Source: a virus. From it: a stretch of DNA of 36,971 nt. Within the stretch, counting starts at the first letter, position 1; every line of letters starts with the position of its first letter. The translations under genes and the position numbers were made by a program. The notes under the pieces were generated by a model. It was not told the DNA's origin, did not search any database, and saw nothing but the letters and a program-made list of their open reading frames with translations. Shown in pieces: positions 2,966-34,199 of the stretch. The stretch lies in the IMG/VR virus record IMGVR_UViG_3300046467_001747, positions 1 through 36,971 of that record, one strand, 5' to 3'.

Positions 2966-2998
2966 ATTCCCTGCGTTATGCGTTATAGGGAATTTTTT
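2966..2998 (+). terminator. Rho-independent terminator
   Basis: ATTCCCT (2966-2972) pairs perfectly with AGGGAAT (2987-2993) and runs into a T tract ending at 2998. The 14-base loop is itself a direct repeat of GCGTTAT. It lies 26 bases after the stop of the gene at 2664. Confidence 0.7.
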
Positions 2999-3027
2999 GC
3001 GGACGAAAGCGTAGGGCCATCCCGCAG

Positions 3028-3090
3028 CACATAGGGCAACGAGGGGTCACATAGGGCAACGAGGGGTCACATAGGGCAACGTATGGCAAC
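3028..3090. repeat. Tandem 20-bp iterons upstream of an early promoter
   Basis: The 20-base unit ATAGGGCAACGAGGGGTCAC is repeated exactly at 3031-3050 and 3051-3070. A half copy with a variant end, GGGCAACGTATGGCAAC, runs on to 3090. The variant contains GCAACGTATGGCA, the core word of the arrays at 7745-7935 and (opposite strand) 11178-11280. All three loci lie upstream of transcription units, so these could be binding sites for a phage regulator or replication protein. Confidence 0.8.
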
Positions 3091-3152
3091 TGGGCGCAAA
3101 CAATCAGATCCACTACTTACAACATAAGTCGCCCCTTTTTTGATTACAGGGC

Positions 3153-4884: not shown

Positions 4885-5097
4885 ATGCAAAAGCTAGCAG
4901 TCACATTCATCATCATGACGGACGCGGACGCTGGGTCCGTACTGGACGCGGCCGAACTGGCCATTGGCGACGTCCTCGCCTGCATCGAGGCGCAGGGCGA
5001 CGACGCCGTCCACAGCACGAGCGGCGGTCGGTCCCCGTGTGTGACCCCTATCGACGCCAAGCGCCTGCGCGAGGGCACGGCGGTGGTGTCGTTATGA
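4885..5097 (+). CDS. Small hypothetical early protein
   Basis: This protein has 70 residues. A longer in-frame start at 4798 would lie upstream of promoter P2, so I use ATG 4885, which is preceded by AAAAGGAAACAAC, the typical early ribosome site. The protein begins MQKLAVTFIIMTDADAG, has a helical acidic middle and ends TAVVSL. It looks like a small alpha-beta fold, with no family recognised. It is first in a six-gene run in which each gene overlaps the next by one to four bases. Confidence 0.7.
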   Translation: MQKLAVTFIIMTDADAGSVLDAAELAIGDVLACIEAQGDDAVHSTSGGRSPCVTPIDAKRLREGTAVVSL

Positions 5098-5336
5098 CCC
5101 CCGACCAGGCACGGGCGCTCAGCGACTACATCCGCTGGGCTGGCCCTGAGTGGCAGACCAAGCTGCGGCGCGATTGGATGCGCGGCGGCAGCGAGTGGCC
5201 CGGCGAGTGGGCGTACCTGCAGCAGCTGCGCAACACACTGGGCAACACGATGGCTGCGGCTCAAGAGCTGGTCGACCAGGAGCCCGAGGTTGCCGCTGCG
5301 CTGGGCTGGGACGGCTCGAAGTGGGTGGGCGCATGA
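5094..5336 (+). CDS. Small hypothetical early protein, Trp-rich
   Basis: This protein has 80 residues and starts at an ATGA overlap with the previous stop, which favours ATG 5094 over an in-frame ATG at 5037 that would overlap more. It is Trp-rich (WAGPEWQ, RRDWMRGGSEWPGEWAYL, LGWDGSKWVGA) and mostly helical. No family is recognised. It is translationally coupled on both sides. Confidence 0.68.
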   Translation: MTPDQARALSDYIRWAGPEWQTKLRRDWMRGGSEWPGEWAYLQQLRNTLGNTMAAAQELVDQEPEVAAALGWDGSKWVGA

Positions 5337-5554
5337 CCCCGGTCGACGCTATCGCGGTGCTGTACGACGTCGAGCTGGGCAACCAGCGGGTCGTCGCGGT
5401 CGGTTGTCCTGACCTGCGCGCGTGGACGCGGCTGCCTGTCGCGGTGGACATCGACGGCGTCGTGCTGGGGCTCACGGGCTGGCACAGCGACCTGTGCCAG
5501 GCGTATTACAAAACCGGAGTGGCCCTGGCGATTCCGGTGAGGGGGAGACGATAA
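5333..5554 (+). CDS. Small hypothetical early protein
   Basis: This protein has 73 residues and starts at an ATGA overlap with the gene at 5094. Its pattern of short hydrophobic strands (AIAVLYDVEL, VVAVGC, PVAVDIDGVVLGL) suggests a small beta-rich fold. No family is recognised. Its coding sequence contains a perfect 8-bp dyad, TGGCACAG/CTGTGCCA (5480-5499), which resembles the operator-like sites found elsewhere. Confidence 0.65.
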   Translation: MTPVDAIAVLYDVELGNQRVVAVGCPDLRAWTRLPVAVDIDGVVLGLTGWHSDLCQAYYKTGVALAIPVRGRR

Positions 5555-5796
5555 TGGAGCAGCTCGTATCAGACAAAGAACATCCACCCACGGCCCTGGC
5601 TGCGAGGCTACGCCGTGCGGGCCAGCCTGCCACGGTGCGCTGCCAGCGCGTCGAGGGGTTCGTGCTCTGCACGGTCGACAACATCGAGCTGGAGCCCCGC
5701 CAGGTTGTCACCCTCGCCAAGGCGCTGAGGCTCATCGCCAACAGCAACGACAAATTCCACCGCGCTCTCTGCGCGCTTGAGGAGTACGCTCAGTGA
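5554..5796 (+). CDS. Small hypothetical early protein
   Basis: This protein has 80 residues and starts at ATG 5554, overlapping the previous TAA by one base. A GAGGGGGAGACG stretch upstream serves as the ribosome site. The sequence is helical and charged (ALAARLRRAG, LAKALRLIANSND, ALCALEEYAQ), with a central VEGFVLCTVDNIELEP strand pair. No family is recognised. Confidence 0.66.
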   Translation: MEQLVSDKEHPPTALAARLRRAGQPATVRCQRVEGFVLCTVDNIELEPRQVVTLAKALRLIANSNDKFHRALCALEEYAQ

Positions 5797-6200
5797 TCTA
5801 TCACGTCAACACCGTACACTGCCTGACCGGCAATCAGGTACGCGGCCTGCTCTGCTCTGCATTCGAGGGCGGCAGCAACTACTGGTACGCTGGCCTGGGC
5901 CCCCACAGCTACCCTGTCGGCGCGACGGCTGCCGACTACACCGAGGGCGGCTCTATGCAGCCCGATGGCGAGTACTGGCACTGGAGCCAGCTCCTGCCGA
6001 CCTCCGGGGGCTCAGTGAGCCTGCGCTGTGTCGACGACGATGCCGACGTCGCGGTGCTCGACGACGCGGCTATCCAGCGGGGCCTCGTGCTGTTTGTCCA
6101 CACGACGCAGTACGGCGAGCTACTCGCTGGCGATGACGACGCGAGCACGGGCGACGTGTTCCTGCAGCTCTGCCTGTTTGGGAGCGTGCGCTATGGTTGA
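5793..6200 (+). CDS. Hypothetical early protein
   Basis: This protein has 135 residues and starts at GTG 5793, overlapping the previous stop as GTGA. It is acidic and aromatic, with Tyr/Trp-rich segments (GGSNYWYAGLGPHSY, DGEYWHWSQLL) and an acidic DDDADVAVLDDA patch. No recognisable domain is visible. It lies in the coupled run driven from P2. Confidence 0.68.
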   Translation: MIYHVNTVHCLTGNQVRGLLCSAFEGGSNYWYAGLGPHSYPVGATAADYTEGGSMQPDGEYWHWSQLLPTSGGSVSLRCVDDDADVAVLDDAAIQRGLVLFVHTTQYGELLAGDDDASTGDVFLQLCLFGSVRYG

Positions 6201-6895: not shown

Positions 6896-6980
6896 GCGGT
6901 GGTCTATGGAGCAAGAGGGGCCAAGTGGTGGTCGGTGAGGCGTCCCCGGCTACGTACCGCTCTGATGCTGACCCATGGAC

Positions 6981-7268
6981 CACCTCCTAGCCTACCTCGT
7001 CAAAGTGATTCAACACTTAAGTCGAGGTGGGTGAGGTGGGTGGTAGGTAGGTGATTCGGCTAAGGCCCCGTGATCGCTTTTGTTTCCTGGCGTGATCGGG
7101 GCTTTTAGCCCACCTGGGCCGCGACGAAAGACTATATGCGTTATATACTATACCTACATCATATATCCCTATATCGACTAGGTAGGAGGTAGGTGAATTG
7201 GGTATATTATTTAATAATATCCCATAGTACCCACCTCTAGCCTACCTCACCTACCTTGACTTAAGTGC
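6981..7268. other. Candidate replication origin: inverted repeat, iterons and AT-rich palindrome
   Basis: A 28-base arm at 7013-7040 (CACTTAAGTCGAGGTGGGTG and onward) is inverted at 7241-7268 with 24 of 28 matches. GGTAGGTGA-type iterons occur at about 7042-7056 and 7180-7200. CACCTC-TAGCCTACCTC recurs in direct orientation at 6981-6998 and 7232-7248. Between the arms the DNA becomes very AT-rich (7132-7225) and contains a perfect palindrome ATATTATT-T-AATAATAT (7204-7220). Iterons beside an AT-rich unwinding element are the hallmark of phage and plasmid origins. No gene is visible in 6896-7290. The origin role is inference. Confidence 0.5.
7065..7106 (+). terminator. Possible terminator after the early operon
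   Basis: GCCCC (7065-7069) pairs with GGGGC (7098-7102). After a two-base bulge, GATC pairs with GATC (7072-7075 and 7094-7097), and four T follow. It could end transcription of the P2 operon. The bulge and short T tract make this uncertain. Confidence 0.42.
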
Positions 7269-7287
7269 TTGACATTACATAATGTAA
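7256..7287 (+). promoter_or_regulatory. Strong sigma70-like promoter with overlapping palindromic operator
   Basis: TTGACT (7256-7261) and CATAAT (7278-7283, five of six to consensus) are 16 bases apart. The -10 lies inside a perfect odd palindrome TTACAT-A-ATGTAA (7275-7287), a typical operator position. The -35 lies in the right arm of the large inverted repeat at 7241-7268. Transcription would run right into the structured region 7290-7550. Confidence 0.65.
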
Positions 7288-7343
7288 CCAAAGCAGGTTG
7301 GTGGACCTACACGAAGCGAAGCTCGCTTCGCCCTTGGGCAAAG

Positions 7344-7620: not shown

Positions 7621-7704
7621 GCGTGCGAGCGCCCGCGCCCGCGCCGCCCGCGCCCGCGCCGTCGCCCACGCCACGCCCGCCCGCGAACGCGCGCGCGCGC
7701 GCGC
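7621..7704. repeat. GC-only low-complexity tract with Z-DNA-type CG run
   Basis: Bases 7621-7685 are almost entirely G and C, built from words such as GCCCGC and CGCGCC. The tract ends in a 17-base strict CG alternation (7688-7704), a classic Z-DNA-forming sequence. Just after it, GAGA...TCTC with flanking GCGCG can fold into a hairpin (about 7698-7728). I see no credible gene in 7551-7973. Confidence 0.75.
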
Positions 7705-7744
7705 ATGAGACGAATTTATCTCGCGCGTTAAGAGCCCCTTTTGC

Positions 7745-7935
7745 CATACACTACATGTAGTGTAGTGTATCGTATGGTAGTGCAGTGCAACGTAGTGTAG
7801 TGCAGTGCAACGTAGTGTATGGCAGTGCAACGTATGGCACCATACATGTATGGCAGTGTAGTGTGTGGTCACAGCAATACACTGCGTGCAACGTGGTGCA
7901 ACGTAGTGCAGTGCGGTGCCACGTAGCGCAACATA
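7745..7935 (+). repeat. Degenerate ~20-bp repeat array with GCAACGTA core
   Basis: The array is built from variants of TGCAGTGCAACGTAGTGTAG. This unit is exact at 7781-7800, differs at one base at 7801-7820 and is more diverged at 7821-7840 (GGCAGTGCAACGTATGGCAC); looser copies run to 7935. It contains a perfect 16-bp palindrome ACACTACATGTAGTGT near its start and CCATACATGTATGG at about 7840-7853. The same words occur in opposite orientation at 11178-11280 and in the iterons at 3031-3090. Apparent frames here are repeat artefacts. Confidence 0.78.
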
Positions 7936-7943
7936 GTGTCAGG

Positions 7944-9715: not shown

Positions 9716-9861
9716 CCATTATTGCTGCGCATGCCCTATGGGCTGTGCTGTGCTTCACAGTGTTCACGTTCATACCGCGACGCCAGAACGCAGCGCTAGA
9801 GCGACGCCGCCTAGCTGGCCAACGTCGCGTTGAAAGGAGAAATAAGCAATGCGCAAAGTAA
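9709..9861 (+). CDS. 50-residue single-pass membrane protein
   Basis: ATG 9709 follows a strong TAGGAGG ribosome site (9694-9700) at good spacing. It encodes 50 residues: a hydrophobic helix (IIAAHALWAVLCFTVFTFI) followed by a very basic tail (PRRQNAALERRRLAGQRR). It overlaps the next gene's start at 9849 by 13 bases, and that gene's AAAGGAGA ribosome site lies inside it. An N-out, C-in inner membrane protein is predicted from the positive tail. Its role is unknown; it could be a regulator of the cell envelope or a holin-like microprotein. Confidence 0.6.
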   Translation: MVTIIAAHALWAVLCFTVFTFIPRRQNAALERRRLAGQRRVERRNKQCAK

Positions 9862-10676
9862 GTAAAGCGGTAGCGAAGCGCCTAGCCATGCTGGGCGTTG
9901 ACGACGTAACCGATAGCGACGCGGTGTTTGCCGCGCTGGCGTATACGGTAGCGGGCAAGCGGCGCAAGTTACTCGGCACTAGTAGCAAGGTACGCAAAGG
10001 CGGCAAGCTGTCCGTGCTTACTCGCGTTATGTATTTGGCGCCTGCTAGGCTTAGCGGCGTCAACATGTGCCCGTGGTCAACCACTGGCTGTGCTGAGGCC
10101 TGCCTAGGCCATAGCACGGGCATGCTACAGCTTGATAGCAATCAGCGGGTGCTAGTCGCGAAAGCGTTGTTGTGGCATTTATTCCGCGCCTACTTCCTCG
10201 AACGTCTCGACATTGAAATACGCGCACACGTCGCTACCGCCAAGCGACTAGGGCTAGAACCCGCTATTCGCTTGAATGGCAGTAGCGACGTGCGATGGGA
10301 GCGCTTTATCAGCATGGGCACCTACGCTTGTATTTTCTATGATTACACGAAAGCACCGGCCGACAAGCGTGACACATCAAGCGGATATCACCTAACGTAC
10401 AGTGTAAGCGAAGCGGAGGAAAGCGAAGCGGAGGCGATGCGCTGGATTGATAGCGGTGGCAATGCTGCGGTGGTAGTAGCGGCGCGCGGCAGCAATGGGC
10501 TAGCCGATGCAAAGCGCGTAGCGCTTAAGCTAGTGCGCAGTCGGTGGCGTGGTTGCCCTACAGTCGACGGCGATGAAACGGACGTACGCTACCGTGATAA
10601 GGCGGGTAGTATGGTCGTGCTGTATGCTAAGGGCGCAGCGTTGCGCGATGACAGCGGGTTCGTCAAGCGCCTATAG
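9849..10676 (+). CDS. GP88-family phage protein
   Basis: This 275-residue protein resembles the family named after mycobacteriophage gene product 88. The conserved core begins KLSVLTRVMYLAPARLSGVNMCPWSTTGC, with cysteines spaced C-x6-C-x3-C at about residues 74, 81 and 85. AIRLNGSSDVRWE follows, then a TKAPADKR/YHLTYSVSE region, an AVVVAARG segment and a C-terminal cysteine with acidic residues. The biochemical function of the family is not established. The Cys cluster suggests a metal or Fe-S site; it is not the classical CxxxCxxC radical-SAM signature. AAAGGAGA precedes the ATG and a strong terminator follows. Confidence 0.8.
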   Translation: MRKVSKAVAKRLAMLGVDDVTDSDAVFAALAYTVAGKRRKLLGTSSKVRKGGKLSVLTRVMYLAPARLSGVNMCPWSTTGCAEACLGHSTGMLQLDSNQRVLVAKALLWHLFRAYFLERLDIEIRAHVATAKRLGLEPAIRLNGSSDVRWERFISMGTYACIFYDYTKAPADKRDTSSGYHLTYSVSEAEESEAEAMRWIDSGGNAAVVVAARGSNGLADAKRVALKLVRSRWRGCPTVDGDETDVRYRDKAGSMVVLYAKGAALRDDSGFVKRL

Positions 10677-10697: not shown

Positions 10698-10730
10698 AAC
10701 GGCGGTAGGGTAACACCTACCGCCGTTTTT
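10698..10730 (+). terminator. Strong rho-independent terminator after the GP88 gene
   Basis: AACGGCGGTAGG (10698-10709) pairs perfectly with CCTACCGCCGTT (10716-10727) around a six-base loop, ending in a five-T tract (10726-10730). It closes the accessory cassette just before the tandem repeats. Confidence 0.9.
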
Positions 10731-10740
10731 GCGTTGTGCT

Positions 10741-10940
10741 GTGCTCAGGCAGGCTCAGGCTAGCCTAGGCAGGCTCAGGCAGGCTCAGGCTAGCTCAGGC
10801 AGGCTCAGGCTAGCTCAGGCGGGCTCAGGCTAGCTCAGGCGGGCTCAGGCTAGCTCAGGCTAGCTCAGGCGGGCTCAGGCTAGCTCAGGCGGGCTCAGGC
10901 TAGCTCAGGCTAGCTCAGGCGGGCTCAGGCTAGCCTAGGC
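10741..10940. repeat. 20-unit tandem array with exact 10-bp period
   Basis: Twenty consecutive 10-base units run without any indel. The main unit is NNGCTCAGGC, with the first two bases mostly TA, GG or AG. The third and last units are variant TAGCCTAGGC. The order of TA and GG units is partly alternating. The period is close to one helical turn, so a protein bound to each unit would face the same side of the DNA. It is noncoding; the reading frames through it are repeat artefacts. Confidence 0.92.
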
Positions 10941-10948
10941 CGCGCCGC

Positions 10949-11021
10949 GCTGTGCTGTGCTGTGCTGGCGTGCTGTGGTGGCGTGCTGTGCTGTGGTGGC
11001 GTGCTGTGCTGTGCTGTGCTG
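10949..11021. repeat. GCTGTG/GTGGC microsatellite-like tract
   Basis: This tract is a mixture of GCTGT and GGTGGCGT words, such as GTGCTGTGCTGTGCTGGCGT, directly following the 10-bp array and ending near GGGCGCCC. It is probably slippage-prone. No gene is credible here. Confidence 0.75.
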
Positions 11022-11093
11022 GGCGCCCAGCTAGGCCGCTAGATCGCACCATGCACAGGGCATGCCGGTGCCAGTGCAACGCTGTGCTACCGC

Positions 11094-11168
11094 ATGCACA
11101 AGCTGTGCCATGGCCACCGAGTATGCACAAGCTGTGCCATCTATCACACCTTGCACAGTCCGTGCCAA
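11094..11168. promoter_or_regulatory. Three evenly spaced operator-like dyads upstream of the late genes
   Basis: ATGCACAAGCTGTGCCAT is exact at 11094-11111 and 11123-11140. A related TTGCACAGTCCGTGCCAA lies at 11151-11168. Start-to-start distances are 29 and 28 bases. A fourth related site is at 7982-7999. The half-sites GCACA/TGTGC resemble binding sites of dimeric repressors. The cluster is the only such arrangement between the GP88 terminator and the terminase operon, so late-gene control is a fair inference. Confidence 0.62.
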
Positions 11169-11177
11169 CGTGTGAGA

Positions 11178-11280
11178 ATACCGCACTACAATACGATGCA
11201 CTACGGTGCCATACGTTGCCATACACTGCACTGCCATACGTTGCCATACGGTACACTATACGTAGTGTAGTGTATGGCAT
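11178..11280 (-). repeat. Inverted-orientation copy of the ~20-bp repeat array
   Basis: Read on the minus strand, this segment contains GTATGGCAACGTATGGCAGT twice in slightly varied form and begins GCCATACACTACA, as does the array at 7745. The two arrays thus face each other across the 3.3-kb block 7936-11177. No transposase or integrase is present between them. It runs up to the first base of one possible start (ATG 11281) of the next gene. Confidence 0.75.
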
Positions 11281-11334
11281 ATGGCGTCACCCCACAAAAA
11301 CCTACCAGCCAATTTCCACCATAGAGGCATTACA

Positions 11335-11760
11335 GTGCTGAAACCCATAGTGATCCTCGATTGGTATTATAATGACAGCGGTTCCGAGCTTGGTTTTAGG
11401 GGCCAGAGTTATACGGACGCGCCTCCGTCGAGCGACCGAGACTTCCACCCGGATCGGCGCACCCTCCGAGCCGCCGCAAAGCAGAAGGCAGTACGTGCTG
11501 CACTACTGCAACTGTCCTATAAGCTGCAGTCCGCGCTGGAGTCGGCCTATGCCCCCAGGCCCCTTGCAACTCAGCTCAAGCTCAAGTATGGGTTAATAGC
11601 CGGGATTGTAGCTCGCGGTTGGCCCCCCAAGGACCCTGCCGAGTTGGAGAAGCTAGTAGCTGTATCCACAAAGCTACTGGCCACTGCTCACAAGGCATTT
11701 ATGATTCTGTATTCGCACCCCAAGGATAAGAGCGCGTGGCTGTGCAATCTCGAAAGATAA
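11335..11760 (+). CDS. Hypothetical protein, first gene of the late operon
   Basis: I prefer GTG 11335, preceded by AGAGG at a 7-base distance, giving 141 residues. An in-frame ATG at 11281 lies at the edge of the repeat array and has no ribosome site. The protein begins VLKPIVILDWYYND, then is helical and basic (RTLRAAAKQKAVRAALLQLS, LVAVSTKLLATAHKAFMILY). No family is recognised. Its position ahead of the terminase genes suggests a packaging or late-regulation role. It overlaps the next gene by 25 bases. Confidence 0.62.
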   Translation: MLKPIVILDWYYNDSGSELGFRGQSYTDAPPSSDRDFHPDRRTLRAAAKQKAVRAALLQLSYKLQSALESAYAPRPLATQLKLKYGLIAGIVARGWPPKDPAELEKLVAVSTKLLATAHKAFMILYSHPKDKSAWLCNLER

Positions 11761-12167
11761 GCGGCCCACTGTTTCTCCCTGAGCTTGAGGAGATGTTGGC
11801 GCCGCTCTCTCGCAGGCAAATCACATATCTAGTTCGTCAAAGAGAAAAGCAACTCAGCGAGAAAATTTTTTTGGGCGGCGGCAAGGGTTGCCCTCTTTAC
11901 CTGACGCTCCCTGTGCTTTCCAAGTACTTTCCAGAGTTTGTGGACAATAGGTTTGAGTTGACGAACATGCTTCAGGAGCACCTGGAGGATATTGACCGTA
12001 GCCAATCGGAAATGAAAAAGGCTATAGTTAGCAACAGGAAGACACTAAACAAGCTATTGGGTAGTAATGGAACTCACACCGGAGCAAATGGAGCGCGTCA
12101 GCGAAGCACTCAAGCGAGGGGCACCTCGCATGCGAGCGTTAAAGTCGGCGGGTATAAGTACGGGTGA
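11736..12167 (+). CDS. Hypothetical protein upstream of the terminase small subunit
   Basis: This protein has 143 residues and starts at GTG 11736 after AAGGAT. It contains LSRRQITYLVRQREKQLSEK, which could be a helix-turn-helix-like DNA reader, then LPVLSKYFPEF and a helical MLQEHLEDIDRSQSEMKKAI. The last ~35 residues, Gly/Ser/Arg-rich and compositionally different, are encoded within a 101-base overlap with the next gene. It might assist DNA recognition in packaging; that is inference from position. Confidence 0.58.
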   Translation: MAVQSRKISGPLFLPELEEMLAPLSRRQITYLVRQREKQLSEKIFLGGGKGCPLYLTLPVLSKYFPEFVDNRFELTNMLQEHLEDIDRSQSEMKKAIVSNRKTLNKLLGSNGTHTGANGARQRSTQARGTSHASVKVGGYKYG

Positions 12168-12507
12168 GTATCGCAAGATCCTACGGATGGCTTCGGACGG
12201 TGTTGAGCCGTACTTATCGTTCGTTGGCGCGGTGGATCGCGCGGAGACTGAGGCGCAGCAGCACCACGTCGGAGCGATTGCCACATCACCGGACTGGCGA
12301 GCCCATGCCTTTATCTTGGAGCGTCGGTATCCCAAAGAGTGGGGACAGAAGATCCAATTTGAGGTAAAGCGAGAGCTAGAGAGGGTGTTTGCCGTTGCCG
12401 AAGAAATCCTCCCAGAAGAGCAGTTCTTACGATTCCTCGAAGGTGTCAGCCGCCTCGATAGCCAAGAGGCTTCTGGACAAGAGGAAGAAGTACGCCCCCT
12501 GCACTGA
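12067..12507 (+). CDS. Terminase small subunit
   Basis: This protein has 146 residues. The N-terminus (LTPEQMERVSEALKRGAPRM, SAGISTGEYRKILR) is a helix-turn-helix of the kind that binds pac/cos DNA. It is followed by GVEPYLSFVGAVDRAETEAQQ and by SPDWRAHAFILERRYPKEWG, a pattern very common in phage small terminases. The C-terminus is acidic. It recognises the packaging site and recruits the large subunit. Overlap with the large subunit is unusually long (119 bases if its TTG 12389 start is right). The start has only a weak ribosome site and probably depends on upstream translation. Confidence 0.82.
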   Translation: MELTPEQMERVSEALKRGAPRMRALKSAGISTGEYRKILRMASDGVEPYLSFVGAVDRAETEAQQHHVGAIATSPDWRAHAFILERRYPKEWGQKIQFEVKRELERVFAVAEEILPEEQFLRFLEGVSRLDSQEASGQEEEVRPLH

Positions 12508-13867
12508 CCCGGTCGAGTTCATATCGAACCGTCTCGCGGTCCAGGTGATCCCCGACTACCAGCAGGATATCATGCGGGCTGTTGCGAACAACCCGCGCGT
12601 AGCGGTGAGGTCGTCGCACAAGACGGGGAAGAGTTTTTGCGCGTCGGCGCTCGCTCTCTGGTGGGCATCGGAGAAGCCGAATGGGCGCGTAGTTCTAACG
12701 GCCACGACGAACCCTCAGATCAGAAACATTCTGTGGAAAGAGATCAAGCGGCTGTCATATGGCCGAGGGTTCCCTCAGCCAGCGGAGCTGCCGGGGCTGG
12801 GGATGCAGTGGCCGGATGGTCGAGAGATCATCGGGTTCAGTACGAAGGAATCTGAGCGCATGGCGGGGATCTCCGGTTCAGACCTGCTGTTCATCGTGGA
12901 CGAGGCGAGCGGTGTGACGGAGAATATCTTCGAGGCGATTGAGGGTAACCGAGCTGGTGGTGCTCACTGTCTGCTGATTGGTAACCCGACGCGACCGTCC
13001 GGCACGTTCTACGATGCGTTCCACAGCAAGTCGGAGTTTTATAAGACGTTTCACGTATCGGCGTATGATGCGTGTACCTACGAGATCCCCGGTCTGGCGA
13101 AAGAGCATTGGATCGATGAGAAGCTTGCCGAATGGGGCGAGCACAGCCCGATGTTCCAGGTTCGCGTGATGGGTAACTTCGCGTCGAGCCACGAGACGAC
13201 GGTGGTGCCTCTGAGTTTGGTTACGGATGCGGTAGAGGGGTACTCCCACTCACCGCACGAGCCGTCGGCGCCGCTGCACCTGGGTGTGGATCCGGCCCGT
13301 TTCGGTGATGACGATGCGTGTATCGTTGTCAGGCGCGGACGACGAGTCGTGGAGATTGTAACGGCGTCGAACCTGGACAACGTGGAGTTGGCCGAGTGGG
13401 TTATCGACACTGCGAAGCGACACCACAGGTCGAGTGAGCAGTCAGCGGTATGCAAGATTGACGCGATTGGTGTAGGATCCGGCGTTGTGGATACGCTAAC
13501 CCACACGGCACCGGAGGCCCTGATGAGGGTGGTCGAGGTTCAATGCAGCCAGGTGGCTGGCGACGAGGAATCGTATCACAACCTGCGGACGCAGCTGTGG
13601 TTTGGTATAGGCGAGTGGCTGAAAGACGGCGGGGTTTTCCCCGAGGACGACAAGCTCAGTGCGGATATTGTTAGCGCTAATTATGATTTTGACGCACGCG
13701 GTCGGTATCGTGTCGAGAAGAAGAGCGAGATCAAGCGGCGTTTGGGTCGATCTCCTGATCGTGCTGACGCGCTTGCGCTTGCGATTTATACGCCGGCACT
13801 CCGGCTAGCGTATGTTAATGGAAAGAAAGCCCGCAGCACACTGCGGATGGTTGGAAGAGGATTCTAA
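12389..13867 (+). CDS. Terminase large subunit (ATPase-nuclease)
   Basis: This 492-residue packaging motor has an ATPase half with a deviant Walker A SSHKTGKS (75-82), Walker B LLFIVDEAS (166-174) and the coupling region GNPTRPSGTF (198-207). The nuclease half has an RNase H-like set of acids: GVDPARFGDDDA (D301), KIDAIGVGSGVVD (D358) and SPDRADALALA (D460). The start is TTG 12389 with GAGAGGG just upstream; GTG 12443 is an alternative. Conserved sequence only begins near residue 40, so the exact start is uncertain. It cuts concatemers and pumps DNA into the prohead. Confidence 0.93.
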   Translation: MPLPKKSSQKSSSYDSSKVSAASIAKRLLDKRKKYAPCTDPVEFISNRLAVQVIPDYQQDIMRAVANNPRVAVRSSHKTGKSFCASALALWWASEKPNGRVVLTATTNPQIRNILWKEIKRLSYGRGFPQPAELPGLGMQWPDGREIIGFSTKESERMAGISGSDLLFIVDEASGVTENIFEAIEGNRAGGAHCLLIGNPTRPSGTFYDAFHSKSEFYKTFHVSAYDACTYEIPGLAKEHWIDEKLAEWGEHSPMFQVRVMGNFASSHETTVVPLSLVTDAVEGYSHSPHEPSAPLHLGVDPARFGDDDACIVVRRGRRVVEIVTASNLDNVELAEWVIDTAKRHHRSSEQSAVCKIDAIGVGSGVVDTLTHTAPEALMRVVEVQCSQVAGDEESYHNLRTQLWFGIGEWLKDGGVFPEDDKLSADIVSANYDFDARGRYRVEKKSEIKRRLGRSPDRADALALAIYTPALRLAYVNGKKARSTLRMVGRGF

Positions 13868-14408: not shown

Positions 14409-15800
14409 GTGGGTATTTTCGCTCGCATGGCGACGGCGTTGACCCGCAAGGCACCGGCCCCTGAGCTGCCTGCGGCTCTAGCGCGGAGCCCGATCCATTC
14501 GATGATGCTCTCGGAGCAGTATCTTCGGATCGGAGGGGGGCTGACTCCGCGCCAGGTAAGTGCGATCATGCGCGAGGCCGACAGCGGGTACGTGTACCGG
14601 CTGGTGGATCTGGCGAACGAGTCGAGGCAGAAGGACTGTCACGTACAGGCTCTGCTGCACACGCGCGAGAGTGCGCTCAGTGGTCTGCCATGGTCGGTGA
14701 CCCCGGCGGTTCCCTACGAGGGGTACGTGCCGACCGAGCGCGACAAGGAAGTGTCGTACTTCGTTGAGAGCGCACTGAAGAACGCCGAGGGCAACGGTGA
14801 GCGGTCGCGAGGGTTCACGGATCTGCTCAGTCACTTAGCTGGTGGGATCTACTTCGGCTACGCGGTAGCGGAGATCGATTACGAGATTTCGGACGGGAAG
14901 ATCGTTCCCAGTGGGTTCACGCCGATCAGTCCGCGCCGGTTCCGGTTCTCGCTGGATAGCGGGACGCTGCTGTGGTGGGACCAGTTTGGGATGCTCGACG
15001 GTGTTAACCTGCCGACGCGCTACCCGGACAAATTTCTCCAGCACCAGCCCCGTGTGAATGGGGACGTACCTGCCCGCGAGGGGCTCGTTCGGGTGCTGAT
15101 GTGGGCCGCGCTGTTCCGTAACTGGGCGATGGCGGATTGGATGCGTCTCGCGGAGCTGGCGTACAAGCCGTGGCGGATCGGGCGGTACAAGTCGACGGCG
15201 TCCACGAAGGACATCGAGGACATGGTGGACGCGCTCGAACGGCTGACGAGCAACGGCGTGGCGACGTTCTCAGATCGGGCAGACGTTCAGATCGAGTGGC
15301 CAGAGCGTGGCCGAGGCGGCAAGCCAGAGCACCACGACCTGAGTGAGTTTCTTGGGATGGAGATGAGTAAGTGTGTTCTCGGCCAGACGCTGACGGTCGA
15401 GCAGGGCGAACGCGGCGCCCGCAGCCTGGGCGAGGTCCACGACCGAGTCCGTAAGGACATCCGAGAGAGCGACTCGGTGGCGATGGCGGCGACGGTAAGA
15501 CGTGACCTCATCGAGCCGTTGGTGAGGTTGAACTACGGACCCGATCAGTTGGTTCCGTGGTTTGAGTTTGTAACCGAGGATGCGGTAGATCTTGGCGCGC
15601 TCTCGCGGGCCATCGAGGGTCTGGTGCGGGCTGGGTTGGATATTCCGCAGTGGTGGGTTCGTGATCGGGCCGGCATTGCTGCCCCCGGAGAGGGCGATGA
15701 GCTGCTTCGAGGGCAGGACTTTATTGATAGCGAAGGACAAGAGCCAGATGCAGATGAACCTGGACCTGATGACGGAGAAGGAACAGACGAGTATGAATGA
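14409..15800 (+). CDS. Portal protein (Mu gp29-like, DUF935)
   Basis: This protein has 463 residues and starts at GTG 14409 after AAAGAAG. Features typical of the DUF935 portal family are LTPRQVSAIMREADSGYV, LLHTRESALSGLPWSV, YFGYAVAEIDYEI, a FLGMEMSKCVLGQTLT region and the C-terminal GLVRAGLDIPQWWVRDRAGI. It forms the ring through which DNA enters the capsid and to which the tail connectors bind. It precedes the protease gene, with which it overlaps by eight bases (ATGAATGA). Confidence 0.92.
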   Translation: MGIFARMATALTRKAPAPELPAALARSPIHSMMLSEQYLRIGGGLTPRQVSAIMREADSGYVYRLVDLANESRQKDCHVQALLHTRESALSGLPWSVTPAVPYEGYVPTERDKEVSYFVESALKNAEGNGERSRGFTDLLSHLAGGIYFGYAVAEIDYEISDGKIVPSGFTPISPRRFRFSLDSGTLLWWDQFGMLDGVNLPTRYPDKFLQHQPRVNGDVPAREGLVRVLMWAALFRNWAMADWMRLAELAYKPWRIGRYKSTASTKDIEDMVDALERLTSNGVATFSDRADVQIEWPERGRGGKPEHHDLSEFLGMEMSKCVLGQTLTVEQGERGARSLGEVHDRVRKDIRESDSVAMAATVRRDLIEPLVRLNYGPDQLVPWFEFVTEDAVDLGALSRAIEGLVRAGLDIPQWWVRDRAGIAAPGEGDELLRGQDFIDSEGQEPDADEPGPDDGEGTDEYE

Positions 15801-17124
15801 CCTCGCGTCAGCAACGCTGTGCATGAAGGCACTTAGGCTCGAAGAGCGCCAAGCCGATTTCATTGCATCCACCGAGGCGATGGATGCGGACGGCGACATC
15901 GTGGAGCAGAACTGGGATTTGGAGCGTTACTCGAAGAACCCGGTTGTTCTGTTCGGTCACAACTCGCGCGATCTGCCCATCGGGCATGCGACGAACGTGC
16001 GTGTGATGGATGGGGCTCTGCAAGCAACGATTGTGTTTGCTTCCGAGAAGGCGAACCCGCTGGCTGAGCAGGTTTGGCAGAGCGTGCAGGAGAAGAACCT
16101 GCGGGCCGTGAGCGTAGGTTTCAAGCCGCGTGAGGTGCGCCAGGAGCGTCGAGAGGACAAGGACGTGCTGGTGCTCAGCGACAACGAGCTTTATGAGATC
16201 AGTGTCGTTCCGATCCCCAGCAATCCCGAGGCGCTGACTCGGATGAAGGCCCTGGCTACCAAGGATCCCGAAGCCACTGGCGCGTCGACCATGGAGCACG
16301 GGTGGACGTGTGACTCTCCCCCCGAGAAGGGGGCCGTTTCCTACCAGGCGTTCAAGCCGGTAGAGGAGGGGTCGTGGAGCGGCTCTAAGGCACGTAAGCG
16401 TATTGCCGACTGGGCGGGCGACGACTGGGGGAAGTATCGCAAGGGCTTCGCCTGGTATGACTCAGAAGAAGAGGACACTAAGGGAGCATACAAGCTGCCG
16501 CACCACGATATTCAAAGCGGTTCAATGGTTACCGTAAGAGGGGGTGTTATCGCCGCCGGGAACGCGCTAATGGGTTCTCGTGGTGGAGTTAATGTCCCCG
16601 AAAAAGATCTTGCTGCGGTAAAGGCCCACTTGGCCAAGCATTATCGTCAGTTTGACCTCACCCCGCCATGGGAGAGGGAAGAATCCGCCGATGGCGGGAA
16701 GGAGAAAGCAATGGAACTGGAAAAGACGGTTGCTGAGTTGGATTCTATCAAGGGTCAGCTAGCAGCAGAGAAAGAGAAGGTCGGGACGTTGAACAAGCGT
16801 TGCATGGACCTTGAGGAAGAGCGAAAGCAATACAAGGAAGAGGTCAACGTGTTGCGTGCCGAAGCTATCGGTAAGCGCCTAGAAGACCTCGTTGGTATCA
16901 AGATCGCACCTAGCGAGAAAGATACTCTCATTAAGTTGGCCGTTCAGTCGCCAGAGTTGTTCGAGGAGCACATGGGTGCCATCGAATCGCGTCCCGACAT
17001 GAACATCCTCAAGGCGGTCGTTAGTGAGACGGCTGAAGAGATCCAAAATCCGAAACTTCTTGCACTTGGCGAGACTGGCGGCATGGAGTTTGACGCCCTC
17101 GTTAAGCAGCAGGCTCTCAGCTGA
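15793..17124 (+). CDS. Prohead protease fused to C-terminal scaffold
   Basis: This protein has 443 residues. Residues 1-150 match the HK97-type prohead protease: VVLFGHNSRDLPIGHA with His56, LRAVSVGF with Ser107, and LYEISVVPIPSNPEAL. Residues about 160-290 form a second module (WSGSKARKRIADWA, GFAWYDSEEE, YKLPHHDIQSG, AVKAHLAKHY) often linked to such proteases. From about 306 to the end it is a coiled-coil, charged scaffold-like region (LDSIKGQLAAEKEKVGTLNK). ATG 15793 follows GGAGAAGGAAC and is preferred over a start at 15592, deep inside the portal gene. A strong internal ribosome site precedes Met307. Confidence 0.88.
   Translation: MNDLASATLCMKALRLEERQADFIASTEAMDADGDIVEQNWDLERYSKNPVVLFGHNSRDLPIGHATNVRVMDGALQATIVFASEKANPLAEQVWQSVQEKNLRAVSVGFKPREVRQERREDKDVLVLSDNELYEISVVPIPSNPEALTRMKALATKDPEATGASTMEHGWTCDSPPEKGAVSYQAFKPVEEGSWSGSKARKRIADWAGDDWGKYRKGFAWYDSEEEDTKGAYKLPHHDIQSGSMVTVRGGVIAAGNALMGSRGGVNVPEKDLAAVKAHLAKHYRQFDLTPPWEREESADGGKEKAMELEKTVAELDSIKGQLAAEKEKVGTLNKRCMDLEEERKQYKEEVNVLRAEAIGKRLEDLVGIKIAPSEKDTLIKLAVQSPELFEEHMGAIESRPDMNILKAVVSETAEEIQNPKLLALGETGGMEFDALVKQQALS
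16711..17124 (+). CDS. Probable internal-start scaffold protein nested in the protease gene
   Basis: ATG 16711 is in frame with the protease gene and preceded by GGGAAGGAGAAAGCA, a near-ideal ribosome site at a six-base distance. It would make the last 137 residues alone: an N-terminal coiled coil (MELEKTVAELDSIKGQ to RAEAIG), then a helical domain ending VKQQALS. Phage lambda makes its scaffold Nu3 in the same way inside the C gene. The nested product would supply excess scaffold for capsid assembly. This is inference from the site and the domain boundary. Confidence 0.55.
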   Translation: MELEKTVAELDSIKGQLAAEKEKVGTLNKRCMDLEEERKQYKEEVNVLRAEAIGKRLEDLVGIKIAPSEKDTLIKLAVQSPELFEEHMGAIESRPDMNILKAVVSETAEEIQNPKLLALGETGGMEFDALVKQQALS

Positions 17125-17595: not shown

Positions 17596-18777
17596 ATGTC
17601 AAAAATGATTCAATTGACCGACCATGACATGGCCGAGGTCACACGCTTAAGTGCTCTCGGATCCATGTCTTCAACTGATATTGCTGCTCAGCGACGCCGC
17701 TCAATGCGCCGTCAGGGGCTCAAGACCAAGGCTGACCAGTACGAAGAGTACGCGGCAACGGTAGACGCAGTGCGTCGTTCCGGCGATCCGCGTGCCATTC
17801 GTGCATGGGGAACTGCCAACCTCGCTCTCAAAGACATCCCGCCCGGTGAGGTTCATGTCGATGCGACGCTGAGCAACATGAGCGTCCAGTACGCCAACGA
17901 GATGTACATCGGTGAAGAGCTGATGCCCGTCTTGCAGGTGTTCAAAGAAACGGACGTTTACTTCAGCTACGGTCAGAGCGACCGGTTGCAGTATCCAGAC
18001 GACGAGATGGGTAGCCGTGGACAGGCCAACGAGATCCAAGAGACTCGCGGCACCACGACCTACGTATGTCGACCGTTCGGGTTCAGCAACTTCGTCTCGC
18101 GGCGAACGCTAACTAACGAGGACGCCCCTCTCGACGAGATGGTGGACTTGGTGGAAGCGATTGCTGAGGGCTTGGCGTTCCGTCGTGAGCAGCGCATCGC
18201 TGGCGTGATGAACACAGCCGCTAACTACGGCACCAACACGGCGGCCATTGCGGCGGCCAACCGTTGGGACACCGTGACTGGTGGCGATCCTATCGCTGAC
18301 ATTCAGAACGCGACCGCTGCCATCTGGCAGGGCCGTGGTCCTAGTGAGCTGGTGGCTTTCTGTAGTTTGGACGTGTATCAGGTTCTGAGTCGTCACCCGG
18401 CGATCCTCGACCTGTTCAAGTACAACGGCAGCAGCCCCGGTCTGGCCACCCCCGACATGATCGCGCGATTCTTCGACATCGAGCGTTTGTATGTTGGTAA
18501 GGCCCGTCAGGACGCGGCGGTAAACGAGGCGCTTCCGCCCAACTACACCCGCATCTGGGGTGACAACTTCGGCGTCTGCCGAGTGTCGCGTCGTGCGAGT
18601 ATCCGTAACGCGGTGTTCGGGTACACCTTCCGCCACGGTGCCATCCAGACGGTGGTTGACTATGATCCTCTCAAGGGTCATGGCGGCGGCTACACGGCGC
18701 AGGTGAGTGCCAGCGAGACGCACGACGTTGTTGCGTCCCCCACTGGGTTCTTGATCACCACTCCGGTTGGCCCGTAA
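17596..18777 (+). CDS. Major capsid protein
   Basis: This protein has 393 residues and sits after a GAGAGGACACAGACAA ribosome site. The N-terminus is charged and helical (TRLSALGSMSSTDIAAQRRR), possibly removed by the protease. The body reads like an HK97-fold capsid protein of the Mu or related type: YANEMYIGEELMPVLQV, FSNFVSRRTLTNEDAPL, EAIAEGLAFRREQRIAGV, IQNATAAIWQGRGPSELV and FGVCRVSRRASIRNAVFGYT. Its position after protease and decoration genes is standard. Confidence 0.9.
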   Translation: MSKMIQLTDHDMAEVTRLSALGSMSSTDIAAQRRRSMRRQGLKTKADQYEEYAATVDAVRRSGDPRAIRAWGTANLALKDIPPGEVHVDATLSNMSVQYANEMYIGEELMPVLQVFKETDVYFSYGQSDRLQYPDDEMGSRGQANEIQETRGTTTYVCRPFGFSNFVSRRTLTNEDAPLDEMVDLVEAIAEGLAFRREQRIAGVMNTAANYGTNTAAIAAANRWDTVTGGDPIADIQNATAAIWQGRGPSELVAFCSLDVYQVLSRHPAILDLFKYNGSSPGLATPDMIARFFDIERLYVGKARQDAAVNEALPPNYTRIWGDNFGVCRVSRRASIRNAVFGYTFRHGAIQTVVDYDPLKGHGGGYTAQVSASETHDVVASPTGFLITTPVGP

Positions 18778-33879: not shown

Positions 33880-34199
33880 GTCTTTGTAAAATCCCATCGT
33901 TCTCGCTGCCATCGTTCCCTATACCTCCAGGGATCCCGATCCCGGCGTTGCCGTCGTTACCGTCGTTGCCAGACTTCGGGATCCCCCTCAAGTTACCGTC
34001 GTTCTCGCTGCCATCATTTCCCATACCGCCGGGAATACCAATTCCGGCACTGCCGTCGTTACCGTCGTTGCCAGACTTCGGGTTGCCGGGCATAAAACTA
34101 CCGTTGTTTTCGCTGCCATCATTTCCCATACCGCCTGGGATCCCAATTCCGGCGTTGCCATCACTGCCGTTCCCGCCCTTCCCTTGCCCCTTGGACTAA
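33876..34199 (+). CDS. Triplicated Pro/Leu/Ser-rich repeat protein after the spike
   Basis: This protein has 107 residues. ATG 33876 overlaps the spike stop as ATGA. It consists of three repeats of about 34 residues, each reading SFSLPSFPIPPGIPIPAL then PSLPSLPDFG or a variant. It begins MSLCKI and ends PFPCPLD, so a Cys lies near each end. The DNA repeats (about 102-105 bases) are less identical than the protein, showing selection on the protein. Similar Pro-rich proteins occur beside gpV spikes in other contractile phages. An extended or beta-helical tip or spacer is plausible. Confidence 0.75.
   Translation: MSLCKIPSFSLPSFPIPPGIPIPALPSLPSLPDFGIPLKLPSFSLPSFPIPPGIPIPALPSLPSLPDFGLPGIKLPLFSLPSFPIPPGIPIPALPSLPFPPFPCPLD

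Follow-up and report, generated by a model that had tools for sequence, protein, structure and literature searches.

Twenty 10-bp direct repeats between the early and late genes of a tailed phage, a possible cluster of protein-binding sites

The window, by which we mean the whole stretch of DNA that was analysed, is an IMG/VR virus record of 36,971 bases and encodes a tailed phage, the source of which is environmental DNA only. A Prim-Pol/VapE-type primase is encoded at positions 296-2326, and an early gene of the GP88 family (PF17338, phrog_1617) lies on the plus strand at 9849-10676. The late operon begins with gene A (11335-11760, plus strand), which encodes 141 aa without a family match and for which the GTG start was inferred from relatives. 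The second gene, gene B (11736-12167, plus strand; 143 aa), is followed by the genes for the terminase small subunit (terS, 12067-12507, plus strand, phrog_4102) and the terminase large subunit (TerL, 12389-13867, plus strand, phrog_2). Further downstream are the genes for a Mu-type portal (14409-15800), an S78-type protease (15592-17124) and the major head protein (17596-18777), and tape measure and baseplate genes are also encoded in the window. Among the tail/baseplate genes, one open frame contains a 102-bp repeat in 2.5 copies (33897-34159), which is proline-rich in one frame.

Between the GP88-family gene and the first late gene there are 658 bp of non-coding DNA. An intrinsic terminator (10698-10727, plus strand), composed of a 12-bp stem, a 6-nt loop and a T run, is located 3' of the GP88-family gene. 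It is followed, in this order, by array A (10741-10940), which consists of 20 direct repeats of 10 bp with the consensus (TA/GG)GCTCAGGC; array B (10949-11021), a degenerate 5-bp repeat (GCTGT/GTGCT) with GGC inserts; region C (11050-11165), in which TGCACAAGCTGTGCCAT-like near-palindromes are dispersed without 10-bp phasing; array D (11176-11290), which is built from 5/10-bp-phased TRCNN units of the TGCCATACGT type; and the motif CCCCACAAAAACCTAC (11290-11305, plus strand) upstream of the first late gene. In region C, two of the TGCACAAGCTGTGCCAT-like copies are almost exact. Slightly altered forms of the motif CCCCACAAAAACCTAC precede the first late gene of the related records L009, L046, L011 and L012 as well, and in L009, L011 and L012 the motif is followed by TATAAT. 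This conserved motif before the terminase operon is a candidate for the late promoter or operator. Array A starts 14 bp past the strong terminator, about 350 bp upstream of the motif and about 1.1-1.3 kb upstream of terS. The preliminary description of this DNA had placed the array between a strong terminator and the control region of the late operon, and this placement is supported by the terminator at 10698-10727 and the late motif downstream.

The same description had reported twenty units with an exact 10-bp period and no indels, and Tandem Repeats Finder (TRF) confirmed this over 10741-10940 (0% indels). The core GCTCAGGC is present in 18 of the 20 units. Units 3 (10761-10770) and 20 (10931-10940) are both TAGCCTAGGC and share the same two-base change, and unit 1 is GTGCTCAGGC. 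The dinucleotides in front are TA (ten units), GG (five), AG (four) and GT (one); the earlier listing of TA, GG or AG is slightly incomplete, since it misses the single GT. Over the 200 bp, the lag-10 identity is 0.80. In 100 dinucleotide shuffles of the window, the highest value at any place was 0.40, and 1000 shuffles of array A gave no value above 0.44. The periodicity of array A is far beyond chance.

A higher-order period, which had been overlooked, is also present. From 10803 to 10934, 132 bp of array A repeat exactly with a period of 50 bp, that is, five units, which is the mark of a block duplication. These data show that array A grew via duplication of whole units and that the latest step was the copying of a 50-bp block of five units. 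The strict register and the absence of indels arise because whole blocks were copied; therefore, neither of them alone is evidence of selection. Furthermore, array A exceeds the common short-read length and contains these 132 bp of exact 50-bp periodicity, and the assembled copy number is therefore uncertain for the population. With 20 units of 10 bp in a constant register in non-coding DNA, array A has the form of helically phased direct repeats; its block-identical copies and its absence in L009, L046, L011 and L012 are those of a minisatellite made by duplication.

At 10.5 bp per turn, each unit of array A is rotated by -17 degrees relative to the preceding one, and the total over the array is -326 degrees. 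The earlier statement that every unit lies on nearly the same face of the helix thus holds locally for neighbours but not for the whole array. Because 10 bp is slightly short of one turn, proteins bound one per unit would trace a superhelix. DNA bending had also been suggested. However, array A (G+C = 0.675) has neither AA nor TT steps, and intrinsic A-tract curvature is excluded for this reason. No open reading frame of at least 60 aa spans array A on either strand, and stops occur in every frame of the surrounding stretch; a coding repeat was rejected on this basis. The RNA of array A folds more stably than dinucleotide shuffles (z = -2.6), whereas 206 of 300 permutations of the units fold at least as stably as array A. 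A structured RNA was also rejected, as the regular fold arises from the units and not from their order. Searches of Rfam and for tRNAs matched nothing.

A DNA similarity search of annotated phages and plasmids with the array region gave no match. Exact pairs of the unit were found in 23 IMG/VR stretches, which is about the chance level by our own estimate, and only one of these, from a different phage (L045), has several copies. In L045, GCTCAGGCGGG arrays occur at several places within one region (5016-5935). A pattern of three units was found in 35 bacterial contigs from actinobacteria, proteobacteria and others, with three to six units in each. Because these contigs are scattered across taxa, they give no host signal.

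Close relatives were sought with terL, the GP88-family gene, the portal gene, gene A and an alignment of terL. Five records in the IMG/VR collection have the late operon in common, with 79-82% amino acid identity in TerL and about 72-75% identity in coding DNA between the window and its relatives; the records compared are fragments, and close relatives in the collection are few. In L010/L046 (TerL 80% identical in amino acids), the order of GP88-family gene, terminator, gap and gene A is the same as in the window. The gap is only about 300 bp long in this case and contains a D-type array (L046 1455-1610, the position equivalent to array D of the window) and nothing that resembles array A. A different gene lies upstream of the gap in L009, L011 and L012. 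The gap of L009 contains AGCTGG-rich repeats with an excess at lags 8 and 10, and the gaps of L011 and L012 are without an array. Array A is missing from L046, L011, L012 and L009, and GCTCAGGC is not repeated in any close relative. Because these relatives keep the terminase operon without array A, an essential function in packaging (as pac/cos) or as an origin in this group is unlikely.

Further arrays with periods of 5, 10 or 20 bp are present in inter-operon gaps of the same genome, namely, arrays B, D and E and positions 2990-3100. Array E (7740-7942), which lies in a different inter-operon gap, is made of GYANN units phased at 5/10/20 bp. Its 5-bp units (GTAGT, GCAGT, GCAAC and GTATG) are also found at 95-240 of L011 and at 2980-3130 of L009, behind an early gap; in L009, the array is partly re-spelled as CTCCA units with the period kept. 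A 23-mer of array E is common to the window and L011, and the E-type word GTAGTGCAACGTA is present in the window, L011 and L009. Among IMG/VR contigs, an E-type 18-mer was found in no other besides L011. The z-scores for period 10 are 6.9 for the D position of L046, 5.9 for the early/late gap of L009, 10.1 for the E position of L009 and 4.7 for L011; since several of the scored regions were picked for apparent periodicity, these values are descriptive. Arrays of 5/10-bp period with different spellings thus recur across this phage group. In addition, a 20-bp repeat (CACATAGGGCAACGAGGGGT, 2.7 copies) is present in an inter-gene gap at 3028-3081 of the window, and its words resemble those of arrays D and E. 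A G+C-rich tract of low complexity, (GCGCCC)n, precedes array E in its gap (7629-7704).

Strict 10-bp arrays are also found in distant relatives (L018, L020, L093, L101 and L017). In the L018 terminase family, which is 31-37% identical to the TerL of the window, the terminase operon is preceded by 10-bp arrays built from unrelated units. The array of L018 is TTTTGCGTGG in four copies, and that of L020 is GGACAACCTA, with NNNNGGACAR in seven to eight copies. Three consecutive arrays are present in L093 (TGTCATAGGT, TGTGTCCTAC and GTCATGGACA), and in L101 TGTC occurs at every 10 bp. L014, a member of the L018 family, has no array in this gap. A core of TGTC(C) at 10-bp steps is common to L020, L093 and L101, while copy number and spacer vary, as would be expected of binding sites. 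The small open reading frames beside these distant arrays had seemed by eye likely to encode RHH proteins; this candidate was dropped because Pfam gave no significant RHH match.

The nearest to an unbiased test of the period is a survey of 93 non-coding gaps upstream of terminase, as the other periodic regions were found by seeking periodicity. In these gaps, repeated 6-mer pairs are most numerous at lag 10 (116 pairs), and a 10-bp array is the strongest lag in 4 of the 93. Eighteen gaps are clearly periodic, seven of them at 10, 11, 20 or 22 bp and five at 7 bp, and the rest have other values. The control viral loci of this survey contained no such array. Among the non-coding tandem repeats that TRF gave upstream of the terminase genes of relatives, period 10 was likewise the commonest (10 of 48). 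Terminase gaps thus favour periods close to one helical turn, although such a period is not universal. Three further observations concern the distant relatives. In L107 (460-500), an 11-bp repeat of about one helical turn, TCCACAGGTTA, occurs in 3.7 copies upstream of terminase. In L093 (3434-3483), a 21-bp repeat (TTGTAAATAAACCTTGACACA, 2.4 copies) with a TTGACA box inside lies just before an operon and is a candidate for a repeated promoter or operator. Repeats of 7 bp (CACGGCA and GACCCGT) in the gap of the distant family, for example at 3218-3240 of L089 and 762-788 of L107, are reminiscent of the omega heptads, which have the form WATCACW.

Given these results, we propose, at a probability of roughly 45%, that array A, located where the early and late genes meet, is a cluster of sites to which an oligomeric DNA-binding protein binds. 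The points in its favour are the strict register, the non-coding position directly past the terminator and the period that recurs in the gaps of relatives. In this proposal, each helical turn of array A would offer one binding site of low specificity, and copies of the oligomeric protein, from the phage (or the host), would load next to one another. Like ParR on parC, the bound row may wind into a shallow superhelix, gaining about one additional turn over 20 units, and the nucleoprotein row might serve to insulate the downstream late promoter or to regulate it. We infer the bound protein from the array. A platform for a polymerising protein, as suggested earlier, is plausible, and other 5/10-bp arrays do occur in the group and 10-bp arrays upstream of distant terminases; the suggestion of a decoy was not supported. 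Several points stand against the binding cluster. The unit GCTCAGGC is unrepeated in relatives, array A is missing from L046, L011, L012 and L009, the group of the window gave no RHH_1, ParB or ParA family member, 7-bp arrays are as frequent as 10-bp arrays in the survey of 93 gaps, and the zero drift between units counts against it because recent duplication alone suffices.

The proteins encoded near array A were considered in this connection. The predicted structure of gene A (pLDDT 54) had no significant match in structure comparison. For gene B, the model is of low confidence (pLDDT 62) and likewise had no significant structural match; its weak best matches are DNA-binding proteins of the MerR/MarR type (E > 0.3). 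The gene B product is therefore a weak candidate for a protein that might load on array A. Searches of the window and four relatives for RHH_1 (PF01402), ParB (PF02195) and ParA (PF13614) found none, with controls that worked; a search for ParM/StbA had no working control and is not counted as an absence.

The closest known architecture is ParR-parC. In the parC sites of ParMRC plasmid partition systems, the direct repeats are 11 bp long in R1 and 10 bp long in pB171 (PMC9426499, PMC5016525). As in parC, the repeats of array A are direct, arranged head to tail, roughly one helical turn long and close to a promoter. For parC, an oligomeric protein wraps the repeats into a superhelix, which may apply to array A by analogy at most. 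Unlike parC, array A lies beside a terminase operon, has a G+C-rich unit and has twice the ten repeats of R1 parC; moreover, no ParA, ParB or RHH_1 family was found in the group of the window. Array A thus falls outside the partition sites proper, and the resemblance is at most one of analogy. A second comparison is the parS of pSM19035, in which 7-10 short iterons overlap promoters and the small protein omega binds cooperatively and forms a helix on the DNA (PMC5016525). Its period is 7 bp and its heptads are A+T-rich, in contrast to the 10 bp of array A, for which no RHH protein was found.

A close rival, which ranks close behind the binding cluster and which we regard as a real but somewhat less probable explanation, is that array A is a neutral minisatellite. 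In this case, slippage or unequal recombination would have expanded a chance duplication of 10 bp in a weakly constrained spacer, and the array would bind nothing particular. The 50-bp period that is exact over 132 bp is consistent with this, and register is kept during expansion of copy number without selection. The unit is found in this genome alone, and four relatives that have the late operon in common with it lack the unit. The RNA fold is also nothing out of the ordinary when set against permutations of the units. Arrays of three to six GCTCAGGC units are present in the 35 bacterial contigs, so the sequence expands elsewhere too. Array A resembles the minisatellites of bacteria and phages, which are short tandem repeats grown by slippage, in its duplication of whole-unit blocks and its absence in close relatives. 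In contrast to minisatellites, several arrays that are unrelated to each other have the 5/10-bp period here, both in this genome and in its relatives. Three results argue against neutrality: the further arrays of period 5/10/20 and different sequence in this genome and its relatives, the common words retained by arrays D and E between genomes that are only about 72-75% identical in coding DNA, and the 10-bp arrays in the corresponding gap of distant relatives.

It had also been suggested that array A marks a packaging site, pac or cosB-like, which would be bound by a ring of the small terminase. Array A resembles the terminase-binding sites of phages in its location near the terminase genes, in a gap that flanks the operon and at a distance of about 1.1-1.3 kb from terS, and arrays recur upstream of the terminase of relatives. 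However, L010/L046 has no such array although its terminase operon and flanking genes are retained, and relatives whose terminase is about 80% identical likewise lack array A; the TerL proteins of L046, L011, L012 and L009 (79-82% identical) should be similar enough to share specificity. In addition, the similar array E lies in a second gap, in the early region. Therefore, we consider a packaging site improbable.

Three other explanations appear more improbable still. A parC/parS-like partition site of a plasmid-living phage, bound by a protein of the ParR type, would fit the architecture, since the ParR of pB171 binds 10-bp direct repeats (PMC9426499, PMC5016525), but it is very unlikely, as neither the window nor four relatives matched PF13614, PF02195 or PF01402 (these records are fragments, and absence from them is no proof) and array A adjoins the late operon rather than a maintenance operon. 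Replication origin iterons have an equally slim chance: although the repeats are tandem and direct and a Prim-Pol/VapE-type primase is encoded, the GC skew has no turning point at array A (the cumulative minimum is near 3-4 kb), no A+T-rich stretch for unwinding is adjacent to this array of 0.675 G+C, and a better candidate is the A+T-containing repeat region at 6.9-7.3 kb, which has blocks similar to L009. In that region (6900-7320 of the window and 2314-2581 of L009), TAGGTAGG/CCTACCT words surround an A+T-rich core, a possible replication origin. Finally, a DNA-mechanical element between two strongly transcribed operons, such as a wrapping site for gyrase or HU or a supercoil sink, in which the period and not the sequence matters, agrees with the period of nearly one turn, the flexible TA/CA steps, the lack of A-tracts, the site between early terminator and late promoter and the recurrence of the period with different unit sequences between phages; it has just as little likelihood, because the TGTCC core common to L020, L093 and L101 points to sequence recognition there and, over a length of 200 bp, a strict period of 10.0 fits wrapping at 10.5 bp imperfectly.

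To return to the binding cluster, a wider version of it, which we put forward as a doubtful idea, is that, in phages with this kind of terminase operon, a row of binding sites in the gap after the early terminator keeps a period of one turn while the sequence of the unit turns over fast. Each array would then be spelled for its own fast-evolving oligomeric protein, the superhelix of which might separate early from late transcription.

If array A is neutral, it shows that register and helical phasing can result from block duplication alone, and it warns against taking phasing as function. If, on the other hand, the period is selected and the sequence is not, an entire class of phage control sites would escape sequence comparison, and scans based on the period would find them.
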